This document shows positions 3,081-27,270 of a stretch of 28,642 nucleotides of DNA, in pieces; the stretch's first letter is position 1, and each line of letters begins with the position of its first letter. Origin of the DNA: a virus; IMG/VR virus record IMGVR_UViG_3300021371_000081, positions 1-28,642 of that record. One strand, given 5' to 3'. A program made the position numbers and the translations under genes. The notes below the pieces were generated by a model. The model saw nothing but the letters and a program-made list of their open reading frames with translations. It was not told where the DNA came from and searched no databases.

Positions 3081-3100
3081 ATAAGTTTATTTGTGGGCAG

Positions 3101-3147
3101 AAAAAAGCCCACCGCAAAGGGAAGAAAAGAAAAACTCTGCGGCGGGC
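3101..3147 (-). terminator. Rho-independent terminator upstream of the polymerase gene
   Basis: On the minus strand a 13-bp stem (positions 3147-3135 with 3119-3107, two G-T pairs) encloses a 15-nt loop and is followed directly by six T (3106-3101). It would end the leftward transcript after the 65-residue gene. The 3' arm can alternatively pair GTGGGC with GCCCAC across the T-tract (3112-3107 with 3098-3093). Confidence 0.78.
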
Positions 3148-3161
3148 TTGCTTTCTAACGA

Positions 3162-3359
3162 CTATTCTTTCGATTCCAAATCTAATTCAGTCTGCTCACC
3201 AGTAACATGCTGGAGTGCTTCCCGAACTACCCTCAACTTTCGCAAGTTGGCTCCGACTTGGGAGAGCTGATCCTCGACTTCAGCGATCATGCCGTCGAGC
3301 ATCTTGATCTCTTCGAGAAGGAGATCACGGGTTTTTTGTTCTTTCTCTTCGTCAGTCAC
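3162..3359 (-). CDS. Small charged coiled-coil protein, unknown function
   Basis: 65 residues starting at GTG 3359. The start is supported by GGAG seven nucleotides upstream, one of the few good Shine-Dalgarno sites in this window, and by its position two bases after the stop of the preceding gene. The protein is almost entirely Glu/Lys/Leu-rich with heptad spacing (LLLEEIKMLDGMIAEVEDQL at 13-32), so it is predicted to be one long helix or coiled coil. No catalytic motif is visible. It ends a replication transcript just before a terminator, so an accessory role in replication or recombination is possible but unproven. Confidence 0.68.
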   Translation of the reverse strand: MTDEEKEQKTRDLLLEEIKMLDGMIAEVEDQLSQVGANLRKLRVVREALQHVTGEQTELDLESKE

Positions 3360-8730: not shown

Positions 8731-9375
8731 TCAACTGTCTGTAACTTCATCGACGTCGATAGCGTCCTTCTTCATCCTCTTAAGAGAGCCTCGCCCTTTG
8801 TCCGCGATACCGTTGTTTAAGATAGAGATATCGATCTGCATTTTACTATGCCCTCCAGCGTTTTTAGCGTTTAAACCTAAGTTCCTTCGGATGAGCTGGT
8901 CTAGGTCAGACAACTCTTTGACGGACCTCGGTCCTCTCAGGTTCTTCATACTGTCCCGCAATAACTTTATTCCGGCGGCTGCAATGTAATGCTGGTATTT
9001 ATCAGCGGGAGTAGACTGGGCCGCTGCTATTTCCGCCATAACCTCGTCTTCTTTCTCGGATGAGTTAGTCTTTAATTCTGATATAGACTTATCAGTGTAG
9101 TCGCTAAGTATGTCATCGGGGTCTTCTCCATCATGCATTCTTTTCTCGGCGGCTTCTGTAGCCCGCTTATCTGCGTCGATACGGGGAGTATATGTGAGCG
9201 AAGGCACAGTAGCTTTCCTCAACCACCGACGGACAGTAGCGGGATGCACATTAATTTCCTTAGCTACGCTAACACAAGCAAGTCCCTTCTCTAGAAGCTC
9301 GATTACTTTAGGAAGCTTCTTGTTCCTTTTTAGCTCGGCGTCGAACTGTTCCTTGTCAGTGGGTTCTATTTCCAT
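8731..9375 (-). CDS. Helix-turn-helix protein, probable small terminase subunit
   Basis: 214 residues. The N-terminal helix-turn-helix is VIELLEKGLACVSVAKEINV then HPATVRRWLRKA (about 24-55), of the type small terminases use to bind packaging sites. A charged acidic linker follows, then a helical region ADKYQHYIAAAGIKLLRDSM (about 123-142). Next is SVKELSDLDQLIRRNLGLNA, resembling small-terminase oligomerisation segments, and a basic tail. Its only unusual feature is position: it is divergent from the large terminase, with 15 bp between the two ATGs. It could instead be a transcription regulator of the divergent junction. Small terminase is my preferred call, at moderate confidence. Confidence 0.8.
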   Translation of the reverse strand: MEIEPTDKEQFDAELKRNKKLPKVIELLEKGLACVSVAKEINVHPATVRRWLRKATVPSLTYTPRIDADKRATEAAEKRMHDGEDPDDILSDYTDKSISELKTNSSEKEDEVMAEIAAAQSTPADKYQHYIAAAGIKLLRDSMKNLRGPRSVKELSDLDQLIRRNLGLNAKNAGGHSKMQIDISILNNGIADKGRGSLKRMKKDAIDVDEVTDS

Positions 9376-9387
9376 TACGCTGACTTC

Positions 9388-9416
9388 ATTATGGCAAGTA
9401 AAGATGAGGAACGCAA
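9388..9416 (-). promoter_or_regulatory. Weak candidate leftward promoter overlapping the large-terminase start
   Basis: On the minus strand, TTGCGT (9416-9411), a 17-bp spacer and CATAAT (9393-9388) precede the ATG at 9375. The -10 includes the terminase ATG. With only 15 bp between divergent starts, any promoter here has to lie in coding sequence. The -35 is weak, so this is tentative. Confidence 0.25.
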
Positions 9417-11181
9417 GAGAGTTCTAGAACCTCACATACACCCCGTATCCAAGATGATGGACATAGGTGGTCTGGAGATCCCACCGACCAGTCCTCTCAC
9501 TGCGCTACTCTACGGGTTCGCTCACCACCCCGAAAACAAGGCTAAAGAGTTCTACTTCTGGAGAATCTGTGACGAACTTTGGAACAACGACGACCTGCCA
9601 GAGAAGATGATGGTCCGCCATCCTTGGGCAGAAAAAATGATTAGGGCTGCTATTAAGAACAAGTATTTGGCGATTGGCGGTTCGGCTAGTAGTGGTAAAT
9701 CACACACGATGGCCGCGTGGGGTATCGTCCAGTGGCTAAGTCAGCCACGAGACACGCTCGTCCTGATGACCTCGACTACGTTACGGGAAGCAAGGAAGAG
9801 GATTTGGGGTAGTGTTATGTCTTTGTTGTCAGTGATCGACGGTGCGCCCATAAAGATTCGGGACTCAATCGGTAACGCCGCGTATATCGATGAGAACGGG
9901 ACACTTATTGAACGGGCTGGATTATCGCTTATCGCGGCGGAGAAATCCAAAACACGCGAGGCAATCGGCAAATTCATAGGAATCAAACAGAAGAGGGTAA
10001 TTATGATCGGTGATGAACTTTCAGAACTTTCTGAAAGTATCTTACAGGCTGGTCTGACCAACTTATCGAAAAACCCATTCTTCCAAATGATCGGTATGTC
10101 CAACCCGAACAGCCGATTCGACGCTTTTGGCGTGTGGTCAGAGCCGAAGAAAGGCTGGGAGTCCATAGATACGCAGACCGCTGATGAATGGACAACGAAA
10201 TGGAGGGGGCGGTATCTCCGACTCGATGGGGAGCGGAGTCCAAATATCATGTTAGGAGAAGTTAAGTATCCTTGGCTACCGACCGCTGAGAAGCTCGCGG
10301 AAGACAGGGCTTTGTTAGGCGCAGAATCTAGAGGGTATATGCGAATGGTCCGCGCCGTCTTCTTCGACTCCGACGAAACAACCGGAATCTATTCAGAAGC
10401 AGAGCTGGCTAATGGGGGTGCTATGGGCGAAGTCGATTGGGCAGACAAACCGACAATCGTTGCCGGAGTCGATCCGGCCTTCACGAACGGCGGCGACAGA
10501 ACTATTATGTATACAGCGGAGGTAGGTTACGCCCGCAACGGTCAGTATGTATGCAAATTGGGAGAGGCAATCCACTTAAACGACGACGCTACAAACAAAG
10601 CCGTTCCCCGAACCTACCAGATCGTCCATCAGATTATTGATCATTGTAAACGCAGAAACATCTCAGCCGATAACGTGGCTCTCGACTCGACCGGAGCAGG
10701 CGCACCATTCTGCGACGTTCTGGCGGGCGAGTGGGAGAGTTCGTTCATGCGTGTTACCTTTGGCGGGAAAGCTTCCGACAAACGAGTTAGTATGAATAGC
10801 CAACTTACGGGAGCAGAACTTTATACAAATCGTGTATCAGAACTTTGGTTCGTCGGCAAAGAACTCCTTAGAACCAAACAAATCTACGGCGTATCCTCTG
10901 ACCTTGCACAAGAAATGTGCGCCAGAAACTACGATATGACAAAGGGAACAGGCACGCTCAGAGTGAAAATCGAATCAAAGCCAGAGTTCAAGGCTCGGTT
11001 TGGTAGGTCACCTGACTTAGCTGATGCCGCGTTCCTTGCTCTCGATTGCGCTCGCCAGCGTTTAGGACTCGTGGCTATCGACCCACCGAAAGACGAAGAT
11101 GGTAAAGGGTTCAGGAAACAGGTTACGATTAAAACGCTTAGTGGCGCACTCGACAATCCCGACGCCACTCTACTCAGTTAA
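9391..11181 (+). CDS. terL: Terminase large subunit (packaging ATPase-nuclease)
   Basis: 596 residues. The ATPase domain has Walker A GGSASSGKS (96-104) and Walker B VIMIGDE (203-209; D208 and catalytic E209). The RNase H-like nuclease domain has AGVDPAFTNGGDRT (358-371; D361), NVALDSTGAG (428-437; D432) and GRSPDLADAAFLALD (538-552; D542, D545). This is the packaging motor that cuts concatemeric DNA and pumps it through the portal. No Shine-Dalgarno site precedes the ATG at 9391. No promoter is evident in the 15-bp intergenic space, so the plus-strand transcript probably starts inside the divergent gene. A portal gene does not follow, which is unusual. Confidence 0.97.
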   Translation: MASKDEERKRVLEPHIHPVSKMMDIGGLEIPPTSPLTALLYGFAHHPENKAKEFYFWRICDELWNNDDLPEKMMVRHPWAEKMIRAAIKNKYLAIGGSASSGKSHTMAAWGIVQWLSQPRDTLVLMTSTTLREARKRIWGSVMSLLSVIDGAPIKIRDSIGNAAYIDENGTLIERAGLSLIAAEKSKTREAIGKFIGIKQKRVIMIGDELSELSESILQAGLTNLSKNPFFQMIGMSNPNSRFDAFGVWSEPKKGWESIDTQTADEWTTKWRGRYLRLDGERSPNIMLGEVKYPWLPTAEKLAEDRALLGAESRGYMRMVRAVFFDSDETTGIYSEAELANGGAMGEVDWADKPTIVAGVDPAFTNGGDRTIMYTAEVGYARNGQYVCKLGEAIHLNDDATNKAVPRTYQIVHQIIDHCKRRNISADNVALDSTGAGAPFCDVLAGEWESSFMRVTFGGKASDKRVSMNSQLTGAELYTNRVSELWFVGKELLRTKQIYGVSSDLAQEMCARNYDMTKGTGTLRVKIESKPEFKARFGRSPDLADAAFLALDCARQRLGLVAIDPPKDEDGKGFRKQVTIKTLSGALDNPDATLLS

Positions 11182-11316: not shown

Positions 11317-11610
11317 GTGGCAACAAAACGATTCAAACGCCTACCTTCAGGGCGAATCCAGTATCATGGGGAGACTTTTGCTGGCTTCAATAAGCCTAAA
11401 CGCGCCCCTAAAGGGTCGAAGAAGAAATTTGTGGTTTTAGGTAAAGAAGGCGACAAAATTAAAAAAGTGTCCTACGGCCATCGAGACTACAGCGATTTCA
11501 CAAAGCACAAGAACCCTAAACGTCGGGCTAATTTTAGGGCCAGACATAACTGTAAAACAGCAAAAGATAAAACAACCGCACGCCATTGGGCGTGTAAACA
11601 CCTCTGGTAA
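11317..11610 (+). CDS. Small basic conserved phage-type protein, unknown function
   Basis: 97 residues from GTG 11317; an in-frame TAG at 11311 excludes an earlier start. It is strongly basic, starting MATKRFKRLPSGRIQYHGET. The C-terminal signature is RRANFRARHNCKTAKDKTTA then RHWACKHLW (about 69-97), with two Cys and several His that could hold a metal. Small proteins with a similar RARHNC...WAC ending occur near structural genes of many marine phages; that comparison is from memory, not a search. It opens the cluster leading to the giant virion protein. There is no Shine-Dalgarno site and possibly no leader. A nucleic-acid-binding structural role is inference. Confidence 0.8.
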   Translation: MATKRFKRLPSGRIQYHGETFAGFNKPKRAPKGSKKKFVVLGKEGDKIKKVSYGHRDYSDFTKHKNPKRRANFRARHNCKTAKDKTTARHWACKHLW

Positions 11611-11612
11611 TT

Positions 11613-12668
11613 ATGGCTAAAAAAGATAAAGATTACGAAGATGATATGACTAGTATAACTGGGGGTGGTTTACCTTCCAGCGATGAAATGTCCAAGTTAA
11701 GCGGTGTGTTGTCTCGTAAAAGCGAGGAAATGGCGGCTCGTAGGAAAAAAAGTGAGGAAGAGAGAGCGGCTAGAAAAGCATCACTGCAAGAAAAAGCTAA
11801 GTCGATAACTGAAAAATACGCTCAAGGTAAGGAAACTCCTGAAGATTACGCGAAGCTAAATACTTATTTAGTAGATTATAAGAAGAAGATGGATGAGAGG
11901 GATGAGAGGGATAGTGTCCCTAAACCCTCCCGATTGGCTGTGTTTCGCGGATTGGACGCAGGAGGGTCGGGTTTATCTAAAGAAGCCTCTTCAGAATCTG
12001 ATTCCGACGTTATTAGTGGCCGTGTTAGCAACAAACCTGCTGTCTTTGAGGATCTGACTTTTAAACAAGATGCTTTCAAAAACTTAAAAAGTTTGTCGAA
12101 GCGTGGGGCTTTAACCCCAGAAATATATAATCAAGCAAAAGATACTTTAAAAAAATATGAAGGAGTGTCTGAAGAAGCTTTTGAATCGACGATGGCAAAA
12201 AATCGAATTAGCCCATCTTTTCAATCTACTTCACCTTCACCTTCACCTCCACCTTCATCTTCATCTCCATCTTTACCCGAACCCACTAACCCTAAAGAAG
12301 CAGCGCAGAACTACGCTTATCAAAGAGAGTTTGGCACGGGTATGGATGCGTTTAAAGCCATGCAAGACCCCATGCGAGAGTTCGGTTCAGGAGGGCCTTT
12401 AGGGAAAAACCAATCAACTCCCCTATATAAAAGAGAAAAAGGAGACCCCTCAATTATGGACCCTGCTACTAAAGGTCAGAGGATGTTAGCTCAGATGAGT
12501 GCTGGCAAATTGTTAAGGGAAAAAGAAGAGTTAACCGCTAAACAGCGGAAAAAACTAGATAAGCTCCTTAACAAACGCGACGGCGCAGTAAAAAAACCTA
12601 AGTCGATGGCCGAGGAAAACGAAGAGAGACGCCAGCAAAGAAAAAGAAGGAACAATACAAAAGACTAG
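11613..12668 (+). CDS. Charged, largely disordered protein, unknown function (possible virion protein)
   Basis: 351 residues beginning three bases after the preceding stop. The first 100 residues are dense in Lys/Glu/Arg and likely helical (SRKSEEMAARRKKSEEERAA at 34-53). A Ser/Pro-only linker lies at about 206-223, encoded by hexanucleotide repeats. The C-terminus is again very basic (NEERRQQRKRRNNTKD). No enzymatic motif is visible. Composition fits a scaffold-like or internal virion protein, and its position directly before two further virion-type genes supports that, but nothing proves it. Confidence 0.82.
   Translation: MAKKDKDYEDDMTSITGGGLPSSDEMSKLSGVLSRKSEEMAARRKKSEEERAARKASLQEKAKSITEKYAQGKETPEDYAKLNTYLVDYKKKMDERDERDSVPKPSRLAVFRGLDAGGSGLSKEASSESDSDVISGRVSNKPAVFEDLTFKQDAFKNLKSLSKRGALTPEIYNQAKDTLKKYEGVSEEAFESTMAKNRISPSFQSTSPSPSPPPSSSSPSLPEPTNPKEAAQNYAYQREFGTGMDAFKAMQDPMREFGSGGPLGKNQSTPLYKREKGDPSIMDPATKGQRMLAQMSAGKLLREKEELTAKQRKKLDKLLNKRDGAVKKPKSMAEENEERRQQRKRRNNTKD
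12228..12275 (+). repeat. CTTCAC/CTTCAT hexanucleotide repeat tract
   Basis: About eight imperfect 6-bp units (CTTCAC, CTCCAC, CTTCAT, CTCCAT) encode the Ser-Pro/Ser-Ser linker of the 351-residue protein. The length keeps the reading frame. Such tracts can change length by slippage, which would lengthen or shorten the linker in whole residue pairs. Confidence 0.75.
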
Positions 12669-12670
12669 AT

Positions 12671-13756
12671 ATGGCCGACCCAATTGACTTCAATCAAGGT
12701 ATCTCTCGTGAGAGAGATATTACTCCTATGCAGAATAGGTTTTTCTCTGAAGATAGCACTTACCCCATGCTGGGTGGAGGTGGTAAAGACTTAAACTGGC
12801 ATCTTAGATACCAGAAAAGTGTTTTGATGCCCCTACAAGAAGATATCCTCAAAACGCAGAAGAGCATTATGGAGCTAGATCAAGCTCGTATGGCTCAGAA
12901 AAAAGGACGTCAAGAGAGGAGGATGCAACGTGAGATGACTAAGTCAATCCCCCTAATTAAGGATAGGATGTCTGAAATAGATCGAATTGTTGATCCTAAT
13001 GATAAGAAATCAGCTTTCAACGACCTGCAATTAGAGTTTGCAAATTCTATTACTAAGAGTCCTGTCATCAGCAACCTATTCCAAATAAAGAATAAGGGTA
13101 TCAGTGACCAGATTTCTTCTGATGAAAAAGAAAAATCAAAGATGTCAGGGGCGCGTAACAGTTTTGCTCAGATATACCTGAATGCGACCATGAATAGTAG
13201 AGACCCTCAAAATAAGTTTGACGTTGATACTTACAACGCGATTAAATTTGGGGATGCGCCACTCAGTGACTACCAAGACATCGTTCAAAAATCTGTTCAA
13301 ATGTCTGACTCTGCGAAGGCGAGAGCGAGTAGCTTTGACGACTTTAAAGACTTACAAGAAGCAGAGTTAGAACTGAGCTTGATACCGCATCAAAAAGCGG
13401 AGTCTCTTCTAAAAGGCGTATCAACTGATCCAGAATCTTTAGATAATTCTGGACCAGAAGGCGCTGCTAACATGGATCGAATTTTAAGAGCTTACCTTTT
13501 AGCGCACGGAATTCAGGACACGGACGATAATCGGGAAAAAGTGAAAGTGAAGTTTGATACTTATGCTGACATAGCGAAAGCGACCCGACAAAAATCTTCT
13601 TTAGCTTTTCAGCAGGTTAACCTAGCTAAACTTAAAAACCTTGAGATAGAGCGAGAAAGGCTTATAAAAAGTACAGGGATTAGTGTTGCTAACCCAATTA
13701 AAAATTCATCTCCTTCAAGCAAGATGAATTACTCTTCTTCCGACCCCGAAGAATAA
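12671..13756 (+). CDS. Helical protein, probable internal or ejection-apparatus component
   Basis: 361 residues, starting two bases after the preceding stop. It is predominantly helical with long charged stretches (for example LKTQKSIMELDQARMAQKKG around 60-79) and a Ser-rich acidic tail (NYSSSDPEE). There is no signal peptide, Cys cluster or catalytic motif. Its place between the 351-residue gene and the giant gene, with almost no spacing, suggests it is made with the giant protein and may assemble with it, as the smaller internal core proteins do in podoviruses. This is inference from context only. Confidence 0.82.
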   Translation: MADPIDFNQGISRERDITPMQNRFFSEDSTYPMLGGGGKDLNWHLRYQKSVLMPLQEDILKTQKSIMELDQARMAQKKGRQERRMQREMTKSIPLIKDRMSEIDRIVDPNDKKSAFNDLQLEFANSITKSPVISNLFQIKNKGISDQISSDEKEKSKMSGARNSFAQIYLNATMNSRDPQNKFDVDTYNAIKFGDAPLSDYQDIVQKSVQMSDSAKARASSFDDFKDLQEAELELSLIPHQKAESLLKGVSTDPESLDNSGPEGAANMDRILRAYLLAHGIQDTDDNREKVKVKFDTYADIAKATRQKSSLAFQQVNLAKLKNLEIERERLIKSTGISVANPIKNSSPSSKMNYSSSDPEE

Positions 13757-13780
13757 GTTAACCTTATTACCCTTACATAG

Positions 13781-16700
13781 ATGTCAGAGATACTCGACTT
13801 CCAAACGTGGACCGCAGAGAACCCTAATGTTACCGACATAGGAGAGCAAGTAAAGCAGCACGCTTTGCACTTAAAAGAAGGGTATCTTGCGTCCCCTGAT
13901 CTTTCTGAAGATGAGAAAATTAGAAATATCTTTGAGGTTAACCAAGGTTCTAATAGTTACTTAATGGAGCAAGGCTTTGACGAATCCTCTATTAGGGATC
14001 TTAACACTCCCAGCTCTTTCTCTTTTGATGAGGAACTTAACCGTATAAAGCAATCGGGGGTAGCTTTGGACGACGAGGACGCCGCTAAAGTAAGAGACTA
14101 CAATGCTTATAGGGAACAAATTGCGTTACCGGATACTTCTGAGACTTACATTAAAGATTTTGCTTACTTAGAGAATGAAGCTTCTGAAGCAGTAGTTTCG
14201 GATAAATACCAAGAGGCTATTGCGGAGAGTTATCTAGATAAAAACGTAGCTCCTTTCGCCCGCGTTAAAGTTGAAGCTCCTGATGGTGAATATGAGGAAA
14301 GATTGATCGGAGGTTCCGCAGCCGAAGGTTTGACTGCGTCAGAGGCTTATAAGAAATCTTTAGATGTTGGGGCAATCCGAAGAGAGGACCTTGAGCAGGT
14401 CATTGATCTTATGCAGTCTAATTCCGACGGCATACCCATATACAAAATTAATAACTATTATGAGGCTCAAGATGGTCTGGCGGTGGCTTCAGAAGAACCA
14501 GATAGCCTATACAACATGCACGTAAAGTCCCTCCTGAGTGACTTTGTTGAAAAGGGTTCTTTTGATGCAGAGGAAATAGACTCGACAATACGTTTTCTTA
14601 GAATGGAACATAAGGGTCTTTTTAACGGGATTCCTGACGAAGATTTAGCTAAATCCATTGAGGGGCAGCTTGGTTATGTTGCCATGCAGGGTGGTATGGT
14701 TGATTTCAACGAAGACAATTTATCAGAGAATATCCAGCAATATGGCTATGGGCAGTATGCTATACACCCTGATTTGTTAGATAGTGATAGTCTTTTTGAA
14801 CAATCAATTGAGGGGTTTGGTGATGAGAAAAAACAAATACTGACCCAGATTAGGGCAGGTAATCTGATCGATTATTTTGAGGTTGCAGACCAAGCACTAC
14901 AAGACACTTACCTAGCTACTGCATGGAGTGAGGCAAAGGCAAAAGGTATGGATGAACTGGACGAGGCTTTGGAAAAAGTTGACTCTGAGATAGAAGACCC
15001 TGAACTACGTGAGGAAAAGAAAAAGAAACTCATAGGCGAAAACAACGTAAGAATTCTAAAAGAATTTAAGGAAAATCAGGATTACAGCGGGTTTAAAAAC
15101 GTCCGAGATGAAATGAGTGGTAAGTTTGTAAGTAGCTTTGCGTCTACTTACAATGCGGCTGGGGTTGTAGCTGACGACCCTGAAGCTATCGCCGCTGTTT
15201 TAGAACACGCTAGAAAAGCTAGCAGCAGGCGCAAAGTTGCTAGACTTTTTGGTGAAGATTTTGAGTTTGGCTCTGAATTGTTGGGTATGGGTTCCGCTCT
15301 TGTGTCTGACGCTACCCAAGTTATAGGCACTTCTTTTGCTACCGCTGGAGTAGGTGCTATACCCGCCGTCGCTGGTAAATTATCTTTAAAAGCGGTAGTT
15401 AAAACGGCTGTCGGTAACCAGATTAGGAAATCCCTCTTAAAAAGTGCTGTTACTAAGGGAGCGACGATGAAAATCAGTAAGTCGATAGCGAAAGGCGGCA
15501 CCCTTACGTCGATGTTCAAGGACACTGCGGCCAGCTTGGCGTCTAGTGGTTTTGTTAGGCAACCTGCCATGTTGTTGCAGACAGGTATTCAAAGCGGGGT
15601 TAATACTTACGCGGCTATTTACGACGTTTTAAAAGACGACAAAGAGTTATCTGATGAACAGAAAAGAGACGCCGCTATTTACGGAGGAGGGGCTGCGGGT
15701 CTATTAAGTATGGGACTTGTGGGGTCTTTCAATTTAGGTGGTATGGCGGGTGTTGAAATGGCCCTTATCCAGAAAGCTTCAGGAAAAGAAGTTAAAAAGA
15801 TTCTAGAGAAAATGAGCGGGGTTAAGGTAGCCTTCTCTAATAAAGAAGCTGCTTACAGGGACGCGTTTGAAAAAGTCCTCAAAGACGGTTATAAAAAATT
15901 CTATGGCGGGATGTTAGGTGGGGTAGGCGGGATGCTCAAGAGCGGTGGGTCTGAAGCACTTGAAGAAGGTGCTGATGAATATTTTAACACAATAATACAA
16001 GCCGTTGCGACTAACGAAGACCTTAGCTTTATGGAGGTCGCTTCTTCCGCAGGGATGGGAGGCTTGTATGGACTAGCTTTAGGAGCAGGAGGACCTGCGG
16101 CACAGTCCGCTATTAGCTCGGCTACTGATTTTGTCACAGGCAACCGCCTCATGAGGACACAGCTGGTTGAACAGCAGGTATTTCAAAAAGTCGGTAAGAG
16201 GGCTAAAAAAGATTTAGATAATACAGGTTCCGCCAAAGCCGCGAAAGAGTTTGAAAAGATTTTTAACAGAGCGAGAACTACGAAAAGAGAGAAACCAGCC
16301 GCTCAAACACCAGCCGCTCAAACACCAGCCGCTCAAACACCAGCCGTTGAGCCAGTTAGTTTCCCACAAACGGTTACTTTAGGGGGAAGCACGATAAAGC
16401 TCCGAGAAACCAGCACAGCAGACGGGGTAGAGCAAGGTGCCGCCTTGCGTTTGGAATTAGATCCAGAAACAGATACTGATACTTTATCCAATATTATCGG
16501 AGAAAGTTTACCACAGAACGGTAAATATAAAGACGCCAAAGTATCCGCCGTTAAAACCGATGGGGGTGGTGTTGAAGTTACTATTACAAAAGCTCCTCTT
16601 CTTAATGACGAAGGGAATCCTATTGTTGATGAGGCAGGGAATGTTATTTCGGAAGGGACTGAAAAGCTTACTTTTCAGCCAAATTCAGATGGGACTTCTT

Positions 16701-19700
16701 TAATACCAGACCAAGACGCTCTCATTGCCCTTGGTAGTGTTCTAGATCGGGCTAAAATCAAGGAGGGTAGTGGCCCCCTTAGCCGCCGTTCGATTGAACC
16801 TGAAGAAAAAGACCTAAATCAACTTGAGCTTCCTTTTACAGAAGCTGCTAGGATTGTTCAACAAGAGATTAGGTATGAGAAAGCTGAGAAGATACTCGAA
16901 GGGGATGCTGAAGCAACCGCTAGGATTAAAGAGTTTGTTGATCAGGGTTTTAGTCATGCGGAAGCTAAGGACATTATTATCCAAGAACTGTTGTCTGACT
17001 CTGAAGTTGATACAGAAACACCGTTTACTAAGTTAGATTTAGGTGACGAGTTTGATGATTTAGATCCTGATGAGGCTACTGATCCCACTAGAGATCCCGA
17101 CATAAATAATCTTATGTCTAAAAAACAAAAAAGAGTGGAGGAAGCTATAGAGGACCTCTCTCAGTTTGGTTATCCTGTGAAGCCTAAGTCATATCAGTAT
17201 GGCTTGGGAGCGGTGTCAAATGCGGAGATTAGTAAAATCAAAAAGGCTGTAGAAGAAAAAATCAAAGGTTACCAAAGTGACCCCAAGTCTCAGCACTACA
17301 TCCCCAATAAATCTGAACTAGCTAGTTATTACGATTACGTTCAAGAAGATTCGATTGTAGAAAATAAATCTTTGAATGGGGCTATGTCTTCTCCTGATCA
17401 CGGTTTTTTGTTTAACAACGACCCTCTTGCGACCAAGGCAGCTATAGACTCAGGTCATATCGTCACTATACCGGATTCTTATAGCGGACCTATAAATACT
17501 GACGTTTTCGTGATAGTAGATGGAGAGGTGCTTGACGTAATGAAGCCTAGCATCGAAGACCGGAGTCCCGTATCCGCTCTTAAAGATACTTCTAGTTCCA
17601 CGCTACATGATACGAAAGCTTCTGAGAATGTAATTGAGCTGGGCGGGATCATGGGGTCTAAATCTTCTCCCCTTAAGCTTAAGTTTAAACAAGCGGGGTT
17701 TTACTCAAAGAAAGCCCTGACTAAAATAAAAGGGTTAGTTAGTAAGAAGAAGAACAGCGAATCAAAAGCAGAGTTTCAAGAACGGTTAGCCTCAGAATTG
17801 GAGTCTCTAGCTCAATTAGACCAACAAGGTAGTTTCGACGACATTTTTGTTTTGGATGGAGAGCTTACTCTTTCTGAGGCGCTTCAAAAATTAAATAGTT
17901 GGGCATCTGAAAATATTAGATCCATTACGGGAGGGAGCCAAGAAGGCGGTTCTGTTGGTGTTAATGGTGTATCAGGTAAGATATTTAGTATAGCGTCTAA
18001 TATTAACCGACTTGGACTCAAAAATCCTGCGGTTGTCTCTGAACTTCAGGAAACTGCGTTTACACAGTTACTTACTGAATTGCGGTTAGGGCTGCAAGTA
18101 GAGTATTTACGCTCTCGCGTTTCTGAGATTAGTAGCGAGAAGAACTTAGACTCTGACGCAGCCTTAGATGATTTTGTGCAAAGTGAGGAGTTCATCGCTT
18201 TCTTTGACATGAAAGACGTCGATAATTTCTTAGAGAAGAAAGAAAACCAAGACATCAATCTCGGAAGGTCTAAATCTTGGGAGTCTAATTTAAACCTCTT
18301 GAACGGGACCCCGCTCCAGAAAATTTCAGCTTTTTTATACGCCACTACTTCTGGGCAAGGGGGGCTACTTAACAAAAAAACATTTAACGACAGTTTCTTA
18401 TCCACTACTCGCTCTAAAAATAAAAATGGTAAGTGGTCTTTAAATGACGGGTGGGAGGCAACGGTGGCTAAACAAACTATAAAAGGTCTCATGGGGCATG
18501 AGAATTTTAGGAGAAAGAACGGACCTTTCCCCAACTTCTTTTCTTACTCTCAGAGAGTCGGTGGGCGAATCCGAAACAAAGCTAGGTTACTTAAGATTAA
18601 AGACTCTAGACAATCAGAATTAGCGCCTGAAGAAAGTATGGCGAATCTAGCTGCCCCATCACCTGCTCCACAAAGCACTGCGGATAGCGAAAACATTTCT
18701 TATGACGCCTTTATCTCTAGAGCTAATCAAAATATACCTACTTTTGTTGAGCAGCTTACTTCCTCTATGTCGAGTAAGGTAAGAGTATTTGCTAACCGTA
18801 TTCTCAGCAACAAAATCGATAACGATAGCCAATACGCTCAGGAACTCTTAGTGCCTGAAGCGGACTTCTTGGGTTTAAGTAAAGCAGAGAAAGATTTCCT
18901 TGTCCTTGTAGGTTATGATACTGGAGAAGCCATTACACCAGACCTAAAAAGAGCGAGATCAGTTTACGAGAATCTGTATGTAACTAGAAACAACGCTCCG
19001 AACTTAATCACCGACGCAGACGCTAAACAGCGGATCGAAGAAAACATAGCGGATATCTACAGGCTCGCTTTAGAGAGCGGGGAACCAGAATCTGTCTTAG
19101 CGGCTCTTAAAATTATCGAGAAGTCTGGAGTTGATGATTCCCACAAACTCGTTGCTGAGTTGTTGTTGAGAGACCCTGAATTTGTTCGCTCAGTTAACTT
19201 TGAAATTGTAGATGACATCCAAGATTCCGCAGGTTCATTCTTACAAGATGAGAAAGGGAGGGGGACAGTCAGGATCAATATTTCTTCTACCTACGGTAAA
19301 GGGGTAGAGTCAATTTTATTGCATGAATACCTCCACGCTTTCACAAAGAAACTTCTTTCTACTGATCGGTCATTGTTGACTGTCGAGCAGCGTAGGTCGC
19401 TCGACAAACTTGAGGCACTTAGGCAGTTGATGATCAAAGAACACGCCAAGAATCCTAAGAAGTTTGACTCGCAACAGGATCAAACAGCTTTTGAAGCTGG
19501 CTTGGCTAACATCGATGAGTTTATTTCTTCAATATTCACTTCCCCTCGTTTCCAACAAGGTGTCAGGGACCTCCCTCAAAAGGGTTTATTGCGAAGAATT
19601 ATAAATAGCATCAAACAATTATTTGGTATCGAACCTAAGACTAATTTAGATACCGCCTTCGATGATTTAGTTGATTTCCTTAACATGGATGTAGTCCCTG

Positions 19701-22700
19701 ATCTTGCTGGTAGGTATTTAGTTGAGCGGCGGATAATGCAAGAGCTTCAGATCCTCAAAGCTGAAGAAGTTATTGAGAAGAGTAAGGCAGAAACTAACGA
19801 CAACGCACGTAAGAATTTCGAGAGGAAAAAATATGACTCTCTTGAAAACTTAAGTTCGGATGATGATGTAACAGAGGATCAGTTAGCTGATATAAATAAA
19901 ATGATTCAAGAGGTAGCGGCGCATACTATGCCCGCATCCGCAGCTCCTGTTGTTATATTAAACAACGAGCAATCCGAAGCTGAGTTTAAGTATGCCCCTA
20001 ATGAGTTGTTTAAGACGGTCCAAACTCCTAATGAAGACGGTGGGAGTAATTTAGTTATCCTTGTGAATGGTAAAAACTCTGGTCAGATCTTGGCTAGGTA
20101 TGGGGATATCGCAAGGAACTCTATTCACCTCAAAATGATTCTTGAGGCGGAACTAAATAGTATTTTCGTTAAGTCAGTCCAGTCAATCGAGTTGACCGAC
20201 CAAGAAATTGATTCAGCGATTGCCGAAACGAGCGACGGGTCCTTCAGAAACTTTGCTAAAAAATATATCCAAGACCCCACTGAACTTGAGAATGTGCTAA
20301 AAGCAATTGACGCGGGGGACGTTGACCTTAAAAGAAACCTCGTCCGTGATATGTTTGCGGACCATTATGAGAGAGCAACTAGAGGCTATACTTCCTACGA
20401 AGACGCTTCTTTTTACCTGACTCAACCTAACACGGCTCGTGTCTTGATGAGGTTCTTCGCTGGTAGTCTGAAGAAACTTTCCTTACGAGCTAAACTCCGC
20501 AAGAATAACCCGAAACTTTCCCGAAAGATAAACGAAATCTCGGATGAGATTAGTTATATCAAGAGTGGTGGTCGGTTTGATTACGCTATTAAACAGTTCG
20601 ACATTGAAGTTCCCGACGAATCTCTCGTAAGTTTCGCTAACCAAATCAGCCTTACTCTCAATGAAATAACTGAGGACACAACTTACGAAGAGATCGTAGC
20701 CAAGCTACCGATGTTCAAGGGGTATAAGATTGCTCTGGGCGCTTTCGCAGGCGGTAAGTATACCAGTCGCACGGGCATTAAAAGAATCTTCCAAGGTAAC
20801 CTTGACCCAAGAATACTGGAACTTAAAAAACAAGCTGATGCGGTGCAGCGGGCTGTTGAAAAATCAACTGAGACAATCGCTAATAAGATTACAAGCTACC
20901 TTAAAAAGAATACAGTTGAAGACACTATTTTAGGGGATTACTTAGGACGACCTGATGATATTGAGATTAGTGAAGAAGTAGAGACTCAGATCGAGAACGA
21001 ATATCGGGTTCGTATAAGGGATTATAAGAATAGCGGTAAGAAGATTACTTCCGAACAAGAAGCTTCTCTCTACAAACTGCACGTTCTGGATAGGAAGGCA
21101 GCGGAAAAGAATACTCTCCTCGGTTTATCGAAAGCGAAAAGAGAGGCTGCTGCTAGCGTCCTAGCCGCTAGCCACCCTGAGCTGCATGAGAATCTTGGGA
21201 AACTCAGGTTTGTCTTAGACTCTATGTCTAAGATTATGAAAGATGAGTTCGGTATTAGTGGCGATCTTGGAGCTGTGATTGACAGTAGGCTAGGCGTTTA
21301 TGTTACCAGAACTTATCGCGCTTTCACTGATGAAGCCTACATGGACAATGTGAGGCGTATCATGCGGGGAGATTTCACTAATATCGACCAAGTGATGGTT
21401 GAGAATTATGAGAATGCTTTAGAGCAATTCAAAGAATTCTACATCGAGTCTGAGGTAAGAAAACGCGAGGCTGGTGTTTCCGCACAAGAAGCCCGAAAGA
21501 GAGTAGAGGATATCTACAATACTGACCCCGCCATAGCTATTCAAATTAAAGAAGCGATGAGGGATTACGTTGAGTCTCTTGATGCGGACAAACAATTCGG
21601 TAGTTCTAAGGGAGGTCTTAAGGACGGAAGCATTGCTAAATCAATTATTGATAACCTAAAAAGGCGTAAAAGAGTTCCTCCAGCCATCCGTAAGTTTTTA
21701 GGGCAGCACGCTGATTCAGAGGTAGTTAACAACGTAATCCGATCTGTGTCTATTTTAAGTCGGTCTCTCAGTAGGGAGTCAATGATATCTAATATGATTG
21801 CTCTCGGGCAAGCCGAAGGTAATAATTTCGTTTACTCTACCGATGATTTAGACCGAATGGGTCCAGAGGCCACGTTAAAGTTGAATATCGTCAACATGAG
21901 GACGGGGGAAGCTTATCGTTACAACCAAGAACCAGAAGGTTTAAGTGAGGAGGATGCTGAATTCAATAAGGGGTTCCATCATTACATTGATGCTGAAGCT
22001 TTTAAACAGATCCAATCCTATGTTCAGAAACAAGATAAGATAAACGCACAAGAGTCTGAGTTAGGTAACTGGATTGTGGGGGGTGTTCAACTCGCCCAAG
22101 GGGCCACACTAACAGCTAAGACATTATTCGGTATCGGTTTCTATACGCGTAACGTGATTGGTAACTTAGGTTTCTTCGGGCCGATGCAGGGCCTAAACCC
22201 CCTGACCCTTACTGAGCATATTAACCAAGTAGGTAAGGTCCTAAACCCACTAAACTCTAATGAGAGTCTCAGGTCTATCGACGCATATCAGGGTAGGTTA
22301 CTTAGCCTGAACGTAATTCAGGGGGATATCACCAGTCAGCTTTTATCGGACTTAGTTAACGGAAACACTAATATAGACGTCCTAAGAGAAAGACTACAGA
22401 AAGAATCAGAGAAACTCCTAAGTGCGAAAGTCAAACTGAAGGCTATGAATGCTTCTGCCGCAGTTAGAAAGAAAACTTTAGATCCTGTTGTTAACCGGAT
22501 GATGCTTCTTTCTCAGGCAGTAGATGACTTCTATAAGATTGGTTACTATGAGTTTGAGCTTTCTGTTTTGAAGAGAGCCAGACACAGCGATTTAAAGAGC
22601 GGTAATGACACAGGTTATAAAAACCTTACGGATGAAGACCTTGAAGTTATAGCGTCTAAAACCGTTCGGGACACTTCTCAATCTTATGTAGATTCTTATG

Positions 22701-23833
22701 AGGCTATAAAAGACCTTTCTTCAAGGTATGGTTTTGTCTTTGCGTCCTTCTTAAGGTTTAAGACAGACACTGTCCGGATCTTTTTAGCGACTCCCTCCGT
22801 GATAAAAAAAGAAATAAGTAGCAGCAACCCAGTCATCAAAAAGAGGGGTTTCCGCAGGCTTGTTGGATACTCCGCAATCGTAGGTGGGGTAAGTATACTG
22901 GGAGCGCAAATCATGCGGGCTATTTTCGGTGTTTCTGAAGAAGAAGATGAGTTGAACAGGAAAGGCTTACCTGAATACCGACAAAACTCTACCATTTGGT
23001 ATTTCAATTGGTTCGGTGAGCAGGTCCAGTGGGACATGACTTTCCTTAACCCGATGTCACCTGTTACGAATTCCCTTGAGAGGTTGTCAAAATACGCTCA
23101 AAAAGGTCAGTTCTTAAAAGGGATTACTGAAGCCTCTGGTATGTTCCTTAACGAGTTTATTGAGTCACCTATTCTTGGCCAAGCTTGGCGGGAGTCCCAA
23201 GAGAATATTGATTCTGTTACTAAGCAGAAGATTTATAATGACTTTGATGAACCTGAAGTAATCTTTGCTAAGAGGGCTTCTTATATCCTCAAGAATGCAT
23301 TTGAGCCACGGGCGCTCAACTTTGCCCGAAAAGTTATTCAGACTACTAAAGGCGAGTCGCCTTCGATGTCCGCAGAGGATAAGTTGGGTCAGCTTGTGAT
23401 GAATGAAATTTCTCCTGTGAGAAACTTGAATGTGGACCACACTAATGCTTTCTACAGTGCTATGCGAGAGACTCGCGATGATTTGAATGCTTCTAGGTCT
23501 ACTACTGACAAGTTAGCTTCTAATCAGTTTCTGTCGGATGATGATGTAGAAGAGATCGCTAATACTTTCTATTCGGATGACCTCAAGATCATGAAACGCG
23601 CTCGCGGTTGGTATAAAACTTCCCCACTTCCTAAAAAAGAAAAAGATTTAATTATTAAATCTTTGAGGTTAAACTCAGATGTTGCAAAAGCCATACGCGG
23701 ATCTGATTTTAAGACTAGATCTTTAAGCTCTCCGATTTTGGACAGGCTGAAAAAAGACGAGGTTCTACGTAAGCGAGGCAAGGATGTTCAGAGCATTCAC
23801 AAAGAGAAACCTAGAGTTAATCCTTTGGATTAA
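13781..23833 (+). CDS. Giant multidomain virion protein with HExxH metallopeptidase and membrane-active segments
   Basis: 3350 residues in one unbroken frame. In order: an acidic helical region (1-470); Gly/Ala-rich hydrophobic segments at about 500-546, 630-663 and 707-785, including GGMLGGVGG and EALEEGADEYF, of a type common in giant phage ejection proteins; a TPAAQ repeat linker at about 839-857; acidic and helical regions; and a basic stretch at about 1555-1625. A zinc-metallopeptidase motif follows, ILLHEYLHAFT, with H1848, E1849 and H1852, and a possible third ligand E1913 in NIDEFISSIF. Near the end are NWIVGGVQLAQGATLTAKTL (about 2762-2781), FASFLRFKTDTVR and a membrane helix at about 3027-3051. 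I infer that it is packaged in the capsid and ejected to open a path for DNA through the envelope. No T7/N4-type RNA polymerase motifs were found. Confidence 0.93.
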   Translation: MSEILDFQTWTAENPNVTDIGEQVKQHALHLKEGYLASPDLSEDEKIRNIFEVNQGSNSYLMEQGFDESSIRDLNTPSSFSFDEELNRIKQSGVALDDEDAAKVRDYNAYREQIALPDTSETYIKDFAYLENEASEAVVSDKYQEAIAESYLDKNVAPFARVKVEAPDGEYEERLIGGSAAEGLTASEAYKKSLDVGAIRREDLEQVIDLMQSNSDGIPIYKINNYYEAQDGLAVASEEPDSLYNMHVKSLLSDFVEKGSFDAEEIDSTIRFLRMEHKGLFNGIPDEDLAKSIEGQLGYVAMQGGMVDFNEDNLSENIQQYGYGQYAIHPDLLDSDSLFEQSIEGFGDEKKQILTQIRAGNLIDYFEVADQALQDTYLATAWSEAKAKGMDELDEALEKVDSEIEDPELREEKKKKLIGENNVRILKEFKENQDYSGFKNVRDEMSGKFVSSFASTYNAAGVVADDPEAIAAVLEHARKASSRRKVARLFGEDFEFGSELLGMGSALVSDATQVIGTSFATAGVGAIPAVAGKLSLKAVVKTAVGNQIRKSLLKSAVTKGATMKISKSIAKGGTLTSMFKDTAASLASSGFVRQPAMLLQTGIQSGVNTYAAIYDVLKDDKELSDEQKRDAAIYGGGAAGLLSMGLVGSFNLGGMAGVEMALIQKASGKEVKKILEKMSGVKVAFSNKEAAYRDAFEKVLKDGYKKFYGGMLGGVGGMLKSGGSEALEEGADEYFNTIIQAVATNEDLSFMEVASSAGMGGLYGLALGAGGPAAQSAISSATDFVTGNRLMRTQLVEQQVFQKVGKRAKKDLDNTGSAKAAKEFEKIFNRARTTKREKPAAQTPAAQTPAAQTPAVEPVSFPQTVTLGGSTIKLRETSTADGVEQGAALRLELDPETDTDTLSNIIGESLPQNGKYKDAKVSAVKTDGGGVEVTITKAPLLNDEGNPIVDEAGNVISEGTEKLTFQPNSDGTSLIPDQDALIALGSVLDRAKIKEGSGPLSRRSIEPEEKDLNQLELPFTEAARIVQQEIRYEKAEKILEGDAEATARIKEFVDQGFSHAEAKDIIIQELLSDSEVDTETPFTKLDLGDEFDDLDPDEATDPTRDPDINNLMSKKQKRVEEAIEDLSQFGYPVKPKSYQYGLGAVSNAEISKIKKAVEEKIKGYQSDPKSQHYIPNKSELASYYDYVQEDSIVENKSLNGAMSSPDHGFLFNNDPLATKAAIDSGHIVTIPDSYSGPINTDVFVIVDGEVLDVMKPSIEDRSPVSALKDTSSSTLHDTKASENVIELGGIMGSKSSPLKLKFKQAGFYSKKALTKIKGLVSKKKNSESKAEFQERLASELESLAQLDQQGSFDDIFVLDGELTLSEALQKLNSWASENIRSITGGSQEGGSVGVNGVSGKIFSIASNINRLGLKNPAVVSELQETAFTQLLTELRLGLQVEYLRSRVSEISSEKNLDSDAALDDFVQSEEFIAFFDMKDVDNFLEKKENQDINLGRSKSWESNLNLLNGTPLQKISAFLYATTSGQGGLLNKKTFNDSFLSTTRSKNKNGKWSLNDGWEATVAKQTIKGLMGHENFRRKNGPFPNFFSYSQRVGGRIRNKARLLKIKDSRQSELAPEESMANLAAPSPAPQSTADSENISYDAFISRANQNIPTFVEQLTSSMSSKVRVFANRILSNKIDNDSQYAQELLVPEADFLGLSKAEKDFLVLVGYDTGEAITPDLKRARSVYENLYVTRNNAPNLITDADAKQRIEENIADIYRLALESGEPESVLAALKIIEKSGVDDSHKLVAELLLRDPEFVRSVNFEIVDDIQDSAGSFLQDEKGRGTVRINISSTYGKGVESILLHEYLHAFTKKLLSTDRSLLTVEQRRSLDKLEALRQLMIKEHAKNPKKFDSQQDQTAFEAGLANIDEFISSIFTSPRFQQGVRDLPQKGLLRRIINSIKQLFGIEPKTNLDTAFDDLVDFLNMDVVPDLAGRYLVERRIMQELQILKAEEVIEKSKAETNDNARKNFERKKYDSLENLSSDDDVTEDQLADINKMIQEVAAHTMPASAAPVVILNNEQSEAEFKYAPNELFKTVQTPNEDGGSNLVILVNGKNSGQILARYGDIARNSIHLKMILEAELNSIFVKSVQSIELTDQEIDSAIAETSDGSFRNFAKKYIQDPTELENVLKAIDAGDVDLKRNLVRDMFADHYERATRGYTSYEDASFYLTQPNTARVLMRFFAGSLKKLSLRAKLRKNNPKLSRKINEISDEISYIKSGGRFDYAIKQFDIEVPDESLVSFANQISLTLNEITEDTTYEEIVAKLPMFKGYKIALGAFAGGKYTSRTGIKRIFQGNLDPRILELKKQADAVQRAVEKSTETIANKITSYLKKNTVEDTILGDYLGRPDDIEISEEVETQIENEYRVRIRDYKNSGKKITSEQEASLYKLHVLDRKAAEKNTLLGLSKAKREAAASVLAASHPELHENLGKLRFVLDSMSKIMKDEFGISGDLGAVIDSRLGVYVTRTYRAFTDEAYMDNVRRIMRGDFTNIDQVMVENYENALEQFKEFYIESEVRKREAGVSAQEARKRVEDIYNTDPAIAIQIKEAMRDYVESLDADKQFGSSKGGLKDGSIAKSIIDNLKRRKRVPPAIRKFLGQHADSEVVNNVIRSVSILSRSLSRESMISNMIALGQAEGNNFVYSTDDLDRMGPEATLKLNIVNMRTGEAYRYNQEPEGLSEEDAEFNKGFHHYIDAEAFKQIQSYVQKQDKINAQESELGNWIVGGVQLAQGATLTAKTLFGIGFYTRNVIGNLGFFGPMQGLNPLTLTEHINQVGKVLNPLNSNESLRSIDAYQGRLLSLNVIQGDITSQLLSDLVNGNTNIDVLRERLQKESEKLLSAKVKLKAMNASAAVRKKTLDPVVNRMMLLSQAVDDFYKIGYYEFELSVLKRARHSDLKSGNDTGYKNLTDEDLEVIASKTVRDTSQSYVDSYEAIKDLSSRYGFVFASFLRFKTDTVRIFLATPSVIKKEISSSNPVIKKRGFRRLVGYSAIVGGVSILGAQIMRAIFGVSEEEDELNRKGLPEYRQNSTIWYFNWFGEQVQWDMTFLNPMSPVTNSLERLSKYAQKGQFLKGITEASGMFLNEFIESPILGQAWRESQENIDSVTKQKIYNDFDEPEVIFAKRASYILKNAFEPRALNFARKVIQTTKGESPSMSAEDKLGQLVMNEISPVRNLNVDHTNAFYSAMRETRDDLNASRSTTDKLASNQFLSDDDVEEIANTFYSDDLKIMKRARGWYKTSPLPKKEKDLIIKSLRLNSDVAKAIRGSDFKTRSLSSPILDRLKKDEVLRKRGKDVQSIHKEKPRVNPLD
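16295..16350 (+). repeat. 15-bp tandem repeat encoding PAAQT linker
   Basis: CCAGCCGCTCAAACA occurs three times in exact tandem (16295-16309, 16310-16324, 16325-16339), followed by a partial, diverged copy. It encodes a Pro-Ala-Ala-Gln-Thr repeat in the giant protein. Exact identity at DNA level suggests recent expansion. It marks a hinge between the membrane-active N-terminal part and the next domain. Confidence 0.9.
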
Positions 23834-26179: not shown

Positions 26180-26641
26180 TTATTGTTCCAGAGCAAAGAC
26201 TGGAGAGTTATCGGATTTGTATCTGAGGACATGCTTGATGACCTCATGGACTGAGTAGATGCGGCAGCGCCGTTTCAGACTCTTGTCTTTGATACTGGTT
26301 GGTTTATCGACAAGTCCACAGATGTATTCTTGTCCTTTGAATAGGTAGAAGTGACGTCCAGCAAGGACAAGATAAACACGTTGAGGCGTGCGCTTCTTAT
26401 CGTATTCCTTAAGCCACTGGTTGACGGTTAGCCCTTTTACGTTCAGTTCATCTGACGTGTGATACCCGAAGTCTTTGAGGGCGAGCCTCAAGAAGTGGAT
26501 GCCACACGATCTTACAGCCCGTTGTCCTGAGTGTCTCCTGATATGGCGGGCGGCTACGTGAGTCGGGATGCCAGTCAGGTAACTAAGGATAGCGGGGCCA
26601 CAGTATGAATTGAGGCCGCGTTTAGGGTAGTGTAACTTCAT
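26180..26641 (-). CDS. C39-like (papain-fold) cysteine peptidase-type protein
   Basis: 153 residues from ATG 26641, whose TAATG overlap with the preceding stop decides the start over a longer frame to 26695. GLNSYCGPAILSYLTGIP (9-26) carries a Cys14 at the head of a helix. GRHFYLFKGQEY (95-106) gives His97 and LVDKP (110-114) gives Asp112. This Cys...His...Asp order and the CGPA context are typical of C39-like and related bacterial or phage papain-fold proteins. There is no signal peptide, so it would act in the host cytoplasm. Substrate unknown; a role in host takeover or processing of a phage protein is inference. If the residues are not catalytic it could be a pseudo-enzyme. Confidence 0.78.
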   Translation of the reverse strand: MKLHYPKRGLNSYCGPAILSYLTGIPTHVAARHIRRHSGQRAVRSCGIHFLRLALKDFGYHTSDELNVKGLTVNQWLKEYDKKRTPQRVYLVLAGRHFYLFKGQEYICGLVDKPTSIKDKSLKRRCRIYSVHEVIKHVLRYKSDNSPVFALEQ

Positions 26642-27270
26642 TAGTAAAGTGCTACTGTTTTGGTCTCCTCCCATTTGTCTTTGATGACACACCATATGGT
26701 TGCCTGATACACGCAGGGGGGATCGTCGGCAAGCTGCGCCTCCTCAAGGGTAATCTCCTCTAGCCTAGAGTATTGGGCTAGTGTCGGGGACGCCTGACAA
26801 TCGACACGGCCTTCTCGTGGCTTGGTGATACAGGCTCTGGTATGCCAGACGTCAACCACGATACGGTTAGCCAGACACCCATTGACGATGGTATCTGCGA
26901 AGGCAGAGACTTTGGGTGACGATGCAAGGACATCTCGCTCACCTTCGAGGATACGCCATGCCTTGTCACGGTTAGAGTGGAAGGTGCAGACGGTGACGGA
27001 CTCTTGAGGGTCACCACTAGCCCACGCTTTGCACAGGTCCCATGCGTCATGCACATTACGCTCCCACTTGTTACGTGGAGAGAGGGCGGCGATGACGGCT
27101 GCTGCTGCGACTTTCTCGACACCAGTGATGTCTGAAATGCAGGTAGCCTCTTCCTCTGCCTTTTCATACCAGACAGAGCCACGGTCTCTCTGGTCTTCGT
27201 CGGCGAGTTCATACCATGCCCGCAAAGAATTGCGGATCTGTCTGTCGGTGTAACTGTTTATTGTTCTCAT
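26641..27270 (-). CDS. ALSP-motif phage protein, unknown function (glycosylase-like?)
   Basis: 209 residues. VEKVAAAAVIAALSPRNKWE then RN (51-72) and KVSAFADTIVNGCL (120-133) followed by RIVVDVWHTRAC (136-147) are the recognisable segments. I recall similar ALSP-x-x-x-W-x-x-N and VD-x-W-x-x-RA signatures in phage and plasmid proteins of unknown function. Their all-helical layout recalls helix-hairpin-helix DNA glycosylases, but the catalytic Lys/Asp of that family is not evident here. The start overlaps the repeat protein's stop (ATGA), and its own stop overlaps the peptidase-like gene start (TAATG). Function unassigned. Confidence 0.8.
   Translation of the reverse strand: MRTINSYTDRQIRNSLRAWYELADEDQRDRGSVWYEKAEEEATCISDITGVEKVAAAAVIAALSPRNKWERNVHDAWDLCKAWASGDPQESVTVCTFHSNRDKAWRILEGERDVLASSPKVSAFADTIVNGCLANRIVVDVWHTRACITKPREGRVDCQASPTLAQYSRLEEITLEEAQLADDPPCVYQATIWCVIKDKWEETKTVALY

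Follow-up and report, generated by a model that had tools for sequence, protein, structure and literature searches.

What kind of protein is encoded by a single reading frame that fills 35% of a viral sequence? The stretch of DNA that we analyzed (the window) is an entire IMG/VR virus record of 28,642 bases, which probably represents a genome fragment, and one plus-strand frame of 3350 codons (13781–23833) runs through it from an ATG start to a TAA stop. An earlier note on this DNA, which gave the same 35% share, had proposed a virion-type protein that might be a distinct ejection machine. Giant ejected proteins are typified by that of phage N4, whose cargo is an RNA polymerase (RNAP). We find it likely that the window protein (hereafter, the giant), from an uncultivated tailed phage of marine origin, is the largest of the internal proteins that this phage ejects, and that it acts as a membrane-inserting delivery chassis with an exchangeable slot.

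The giant gene and its genomic setting

A stop-free run as long as this frame has a chance probability of ~1e-88 at the GC content of the window. A near-identical contig (L001) carries the gene intact, encoding a protein of 3355 residues that is 98% identical to the window copy, and the codon differences between the two copies comprise 153 synonymous and 56 non-synonymous changes. With the relative's copy intact and purifying selection acting, the giant ORF is real. No clear Shine-Dalgarno sequence precedes its ATG (window positions 13757–13780).

To the left of the giant gene lie minus-strand replication genes (encoding a family-A DNA polymerase, an exonuclease, a helicase and RuvC), and the plus strand carries, in order:

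9391–11181, plus strand: large terminase subunit gene, terL (phrog_2, E 5e-16)
11317–11610, plus strand: 97-amino-acid basic head/DNA-pilot-like protein (phrog_7595, phrog_220), 92–99% identical across the lineage
11613–12668, plus strand: g351, candidate ejection partner, fast diverging
12671–13756, plus strand: g361, candidate ejection partner, fast diverging
13781–23833, plus strand: giant ORF, 3350 amino acids, putative ejected internal virion protein, a single ATG-to-TAA frame with a relative in L001

The PHROG matches of the 97-amino-acid protein are a minor head protein and a DNA pilot protein, and the giant, together with g351 and g361, is encoded among late or virion genes, directly downstream of terL and the 97-amino-acid gene (g97). 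Farther along, a stand-alone gene (26641–27270) encodes a DUF7178 protein, and DUF7178 also matches the giants of 3 of 13 relatives (E<=0.01).

TerL is present in 465 IMG/VR loci. In the phage collection, the best match to the DNA polymerase was only ~27% identical and no TerL match that spanned most of the protein exceeded 24%; cultured phages close to the lineage are thus absent from that collection. The portal and capsid genes of the relatives had no database match, and the tail is probably short. The gene order of one relative (G006) hinted at a member of the Schitoviridae, but profile comparison led us to reject this assignment. TerL was not detectably related to the schitovirus terminase, g351 and g361 showed no homology to N4 gp51 and gp52, and candidate portal and capsid genes, picked out only by their size and order, did not match their schitovirus counterparts. 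Four TerL relatives (L207–L210) lie inside MAG contigs labelled Opitutae, Blastopirellula or Altibacter; these labels are weak and conflicting host hints, with mis-binning the likely cause.

A shared plan around a variable slot

Whole-protein searches with the giant against Pfam, PHROGs and the PDB returned no match, and profiles built from relatives were required. We drew relatives from IMG/VR as 27 TerL-selected records and 70 loci from a scan with the C-terminal module, which together yielded 50 distinct giants for comparison. All 27 TerL-selected records carried a giant homologue at the same place, and most of the 50 giants, which ranged from 2284 to 4270 amino acids, shared one plan: an N-terminal module (~1–880), a slot, a zincin-like C1 domain (1740–1990) and a C-terminal module (2000–3350). 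In the window copy the parts are as follows:

13781–15100, plus strand: helical N-terminal domain, residues 1–440 (AlphaFold2, mean pLDDT ~90)
15218–16270, plus strand: Ala/Gly-rich membrane-type helical segments, residues 480–830
16271–16420, plus strand: low-complexity PAAQTP-type linker, residues 831–880
16418–18997, plus strand: variable cargo slot, residues 880–1739 (J-domain, GNAT or H1-like tail in relatives)
17120–17605, plus strand: unnamed conserved domain with FNNDP (1211–1215), residues 1114–1275, in ~32 of 50 relatives
18998–19750, plus strand: zincin-like C1, residues 1740–1990, with HEYLH at 19322–19336 and E1913 as the probable third ligand
19778–23830, plus strand: helical C-terminal module, residues 2000–3350, of which ~2500–3300 are homologous to phi18:3 gp123, Y3, HTVC027P and 023Pt
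22859–22915, plus strand: marginal TM-like helix, residues 3027–3045 (mean hydropathy 1.64)

AlphaFold2 predicted residues 1–440 as a confident helical domain and gave low confidence to most of 495–830. Neither of our two AlphaFold models had a Foldseek match in the PDB at E<=0.001, nor did the N-terminal model in BFVD; the second model had a pTM of 0.36, so its lack of a match carries little weight. The Gly/Ala-rich segments that had been noticed near residues 500–785 are indeed there: Ala and Gly make up 27% of residues 480–800 against a mean of 15%, and the richest 300-residue window of the giant begins at residue 491. The hydropathy of this membrane-type segment (480–830) is modest. Within it, an ExxEEGxD...GxxxG motif (residues 725–768) is invariant, and its ExxEEG...GxxYG form weakly resembles residues 388–434 of the N4 N-terminal domain (hhalign against 375–435, E 0.0018; hmmsearch not significant). 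The second hydrophobic region that had been proposed, at 2760–3051, held up only in part: it contains the one marginal TM-like helix, which recurs at about the equivalent place in 13 of 13 full-length relatives, and is otherwise weak.

The slot varies from ~85 to more than 1,400 residues across relatives. Some giants have N- and C-terminal modules but no significant match to C1; in three such giants the slot spans only ~85–190 residues. In three relatives (L087, L142 and L183), a J-domain with an intact HPD directly follows the N-terminal module, and in L142 and L183 it is followed in turn by a GNAT match, which exceeds the Pfam cut-off in L142 only. A histone-H1-like Lys/Ala tail occupies the slot of L088 (residue ~942), with a similar tract in L091 (residue ~1039). 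The slot of the window copy had no Pfam match, and its sole recognizable content is the FNDP domain, whose motif reads FxNDP across its ~32 members.

Such contents raise the alternative that the giant is a polyvalent effector that mainly disarms host defence after injection, with an incidental membrane segment. Polyvalent proteins are likewise giant, encoded near late genes, and equipped with a zincin-like domain and with enzymatic modules that include GNAT across relatives (PMC5512222), and the zincin, GNAT and other enzyme-like modules in our lineage are of this kind. However, no Pfam LPD domain was found in the giant, and a conserved chassis dominates it: the N- and C-terminal modules are conserved across relatives and the slot is not, near-slotless forms exist, and C1 is the only enzyme-like domain recognizable in the window copy (L142 and L183 have the J-domain, GNAT, below the Pfam cut-off in L183, and the zincin). 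We consider a primarily anti-defence role unlikely, although it is compatible with a delivery chassis and differs from it in emphasis. Iyer et al. (2017; PMC5512222) use neither 'DnaJ' nor 'J domain' in describing polyvalent proteins.

The N4 domain plan without a detectable polymerase

Two modules of the giant are homologous to proteins of virions, which supports the proposal of a virion-type protein. When a profile of 13 giants was compared with solved structures, its sole match at E<=0.01 was gp48, the tetrameric ejection protein of Pectobacterium phage PhiM1 (8vb2_A), over C1 (E 2.4e-6); the cryo-EM structure of PhiM1 places gp48 in the core of the ejectosome (PMC11440229). The aligned part of gp48 (PDB 8VB2), residues 381–510, lies inside its 'endolysin-like' domain (268–528); gp48 is a protein of 1263 amino acids without the giant's C-terminal module, and only the C1 stretch aligns. 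C1 also matched the C1 of N4-like virion RNA polymerases (vRNAPs; hhalign 95%, E 2.8e-8) and a protein of Vibrio phage 1.205.O (E 1.8e-13). These comparisons indicate, at the level of sequence profiles, that C1 is homologous to PhiM1 gp48 and to the C1 of the N4 vRNAP. Because Vibrio phage 1.205.O carries LPD38, we considered membership in that family and rejected it (hhalign E 0.17).

The C-terminal module matched the ART protein of Pseudoalteromonas phage Y3 (E 1.5e-49), gp123 of Cellulophaga phage phi18:3 (E 1.9e-30; hhalign 100%, E 1e-57), pelagiphage HTVC027P gp85 (E 3e-23) and 023Pt (E 7e-19), and reversed sequences used as controls were negative. The phi18:3 record attributes the gp123 annotation to experimental MS/MS proteomics, which marks it as a virion protein. 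Homology extends over the C-terminal ~650–740 residues of phi18:3 gp123 (Pachyviridae) and the Y3 protein and over ~390 residues of HTVC027P gp85, and these three genes, like that of the giant, close the structural block or lie near its end. Their products are shorter than the giant, have no C1 match and carry other N-terminal parts (ART in Y3). When genome contigs were scanned with the C-terminal module, no relative turned up.

These homologies bear on the idea that the giant is not ejected from the head but is a tape-measure or other structural protein of the tail. Its length and helical content would suit such a role, and BFVD held a distant match to a tape-measure protein that was not significant. 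The C1 and C-terminal matches nonetheless indicate ejection or virion proteins, and a span of 2284–4270 amino acids among relatives is unlike a ruler in a single lineage, which makes this assignment highly improbable. Neither an RNAP fold nor a tail-fibre fold, which the earlier note had set against its own reading if spread across most of the protein, was found.

The structure of the N4 vRNAP comprises an N-terminal domain with membrane helices, a 100-residue linker, the RNAP, a zincin C1 and a helical C2 (PMC12633501). The giant has a membrane-type N-terminal domain, a linker, other modules, a zincin C1 and a helical C terminus, which is the plan of N4 gp50 minus the RNAP. N4 gp50 and the vRNAPs of the Schitoviridae are of similar size, and their C1 is homologous to that of the giant. 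The opinion that the domain order departs from that of N4 thus did not survive comparison: the order is N4's, with the polymerase absent. A 'distinct ejection machine' is apt only in the sense of an RNAP-free, cargo-variable version of the N4 plan, not of something unlike N4. The C-terminal module showed no detectable homology to N4 C2 (residues 2376–3500) in profile comparison.

Could the slot instead be a remote single-subunit RNAP, making the giant a vRNAP that has diverged beyond the reach of profiles? The shared domain order (PMC12633501) and the homologous zincin C1 would both fit, as would the similarity of the C-terminal module to a 'putative virion-associated RNA polymerase' of Stenotrophomonas phage StenR_269. 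To look for an RNAP we replaced a PF00940 search, whose control gave no signal, with a profile built from three schitoviruses, which recovered three held-out schitovirus RNAPs at E 1e-26 to 4e-33. This profile had no match in the window or in eight genome records of the lineage, one of which (G021) appears complete because it has a 123-bp terminal repeat. The earlier statement that no RNAP is visible is borne out by this search. A direct hhalign comparison of the slot with the RNAP domain gave E 0.84, the window slot has 860 amino acids versus ~1100 for the N4 RNAP, and the ~85–190-residue slots of three relatives are below RNAP size. A concealed polymerase is therefore extremely unlikely. The StenR_269 protein (L134:7351–14163) shares the C-terminal module at hhalign E 4e-10.

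The peptidase motif that had been placed at residue 1848 is exactly there (HEYLH, 1848–1852), within the part of the protein that is best conserved across the family, and the window copy has HExxH plus a distal Glu (E1913), as expected of a zincin. All 13 aligned full-length giants have E1849 and H1852. Residue 1848, however, is His in 24 of 40 C1-matched members and Glu in the other 16, giving EExxH, and EExxH-type motifs occur in eight further relatives without a C1 match (nearly all such members). Peptidase activity is possible for the window C1, which retains the full motif and E1913, but the EExxH forms indicate that it is not a property of the whole family, which weakens the reading of the domain as a peptidase. 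Many relatives have lost the first zinc ligand, which is relevant to whether the zincin domain common among ejected proteins acts as a protease at all.

From these homologies, we infer that the giant resides in the virion and is ejected. As a membrane-inserting delivery chassis, it would be stored in the phage head and pass through the tail before the DNA or together with it, upon which the N-terminal helical domain and the Gly/Ala-rich segment (480–830) would insert into the cell envelope. The C-terminal helical module may hold the giant docked in the virion or fold the injected complex. Located between C1 and the membrane segment, where N4 has its RNAP, the slot would hold exchangeable effector modules for delivery to the periplasm or cytoplasm, and g351 and g361 are probable partners. 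The lineage suggests that the delivery frame is more general, with the polymerase as only one of its occupants, and the natural cargo variants and near-cargo-free forms of the lineage offer material for studying how 350-kDa proteins pass the tail and cross the envelope.

Probable exchange of the ejection cassette

Among the TerL-selected relatives, the replication genes, TerL and the 97-amino-acid protein are mostly 78–96% identical (protein medians; 47% for the gene beside terL), versus only 26–40% protein identity for g351, g361 and the giant. At the nucleotide level, the backbones are 80–90% alike up to the stop codon of the 97-amino-acid gene, and similarity then stops at ~11,609–11,643 in the 12 relatives listed, with matches beyond this point being shorter than 100 bases and inside g351:

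11610–11643, no strand: identity cliff between the conserved backbone and the putatively exchanged ejection cassette

One triplet of relatives provides the detail. L011 and L022 have TerL proteins that are 97% identical and giant N-terminal modules that are 34% identical, and in blastn their alignment breaks 13 bases past the 97-amino-acid gene, with only short matches further on. L011 and L050, by comparison, have TerL proteins that are 89% identical and N-terminal modules that are 78% identical, and they align through the giant at 72–76%. Because rapid divergence alone would not yield this reciprocal pattern, the triplet is best read as an exchange of the ejection cassette between phages.

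Cassette replacement on backbones that are 80–90% alike points to strong selection at the ejection step. Tentatively, these observations could be joined into a fuller picture of a delivery chassis with an exchangeable cargo bay, in which a conserved insertion and docking frame, akin to the N4 vRNAP in architecture and C1 and lacking the polymerase, has its J-domain, acetyltransferase, histone-H1-like and unnamed modules swapped, and in which phages of near-identical backbone trade the cassette as a whole, which may adjust entry to the envelopes or defences of hosts.

The gene beside terL (8731–9375) has a weak terminase-small-subunit-like match and is 47% identical across the lineage, between neighbours that are 84–95% identical.
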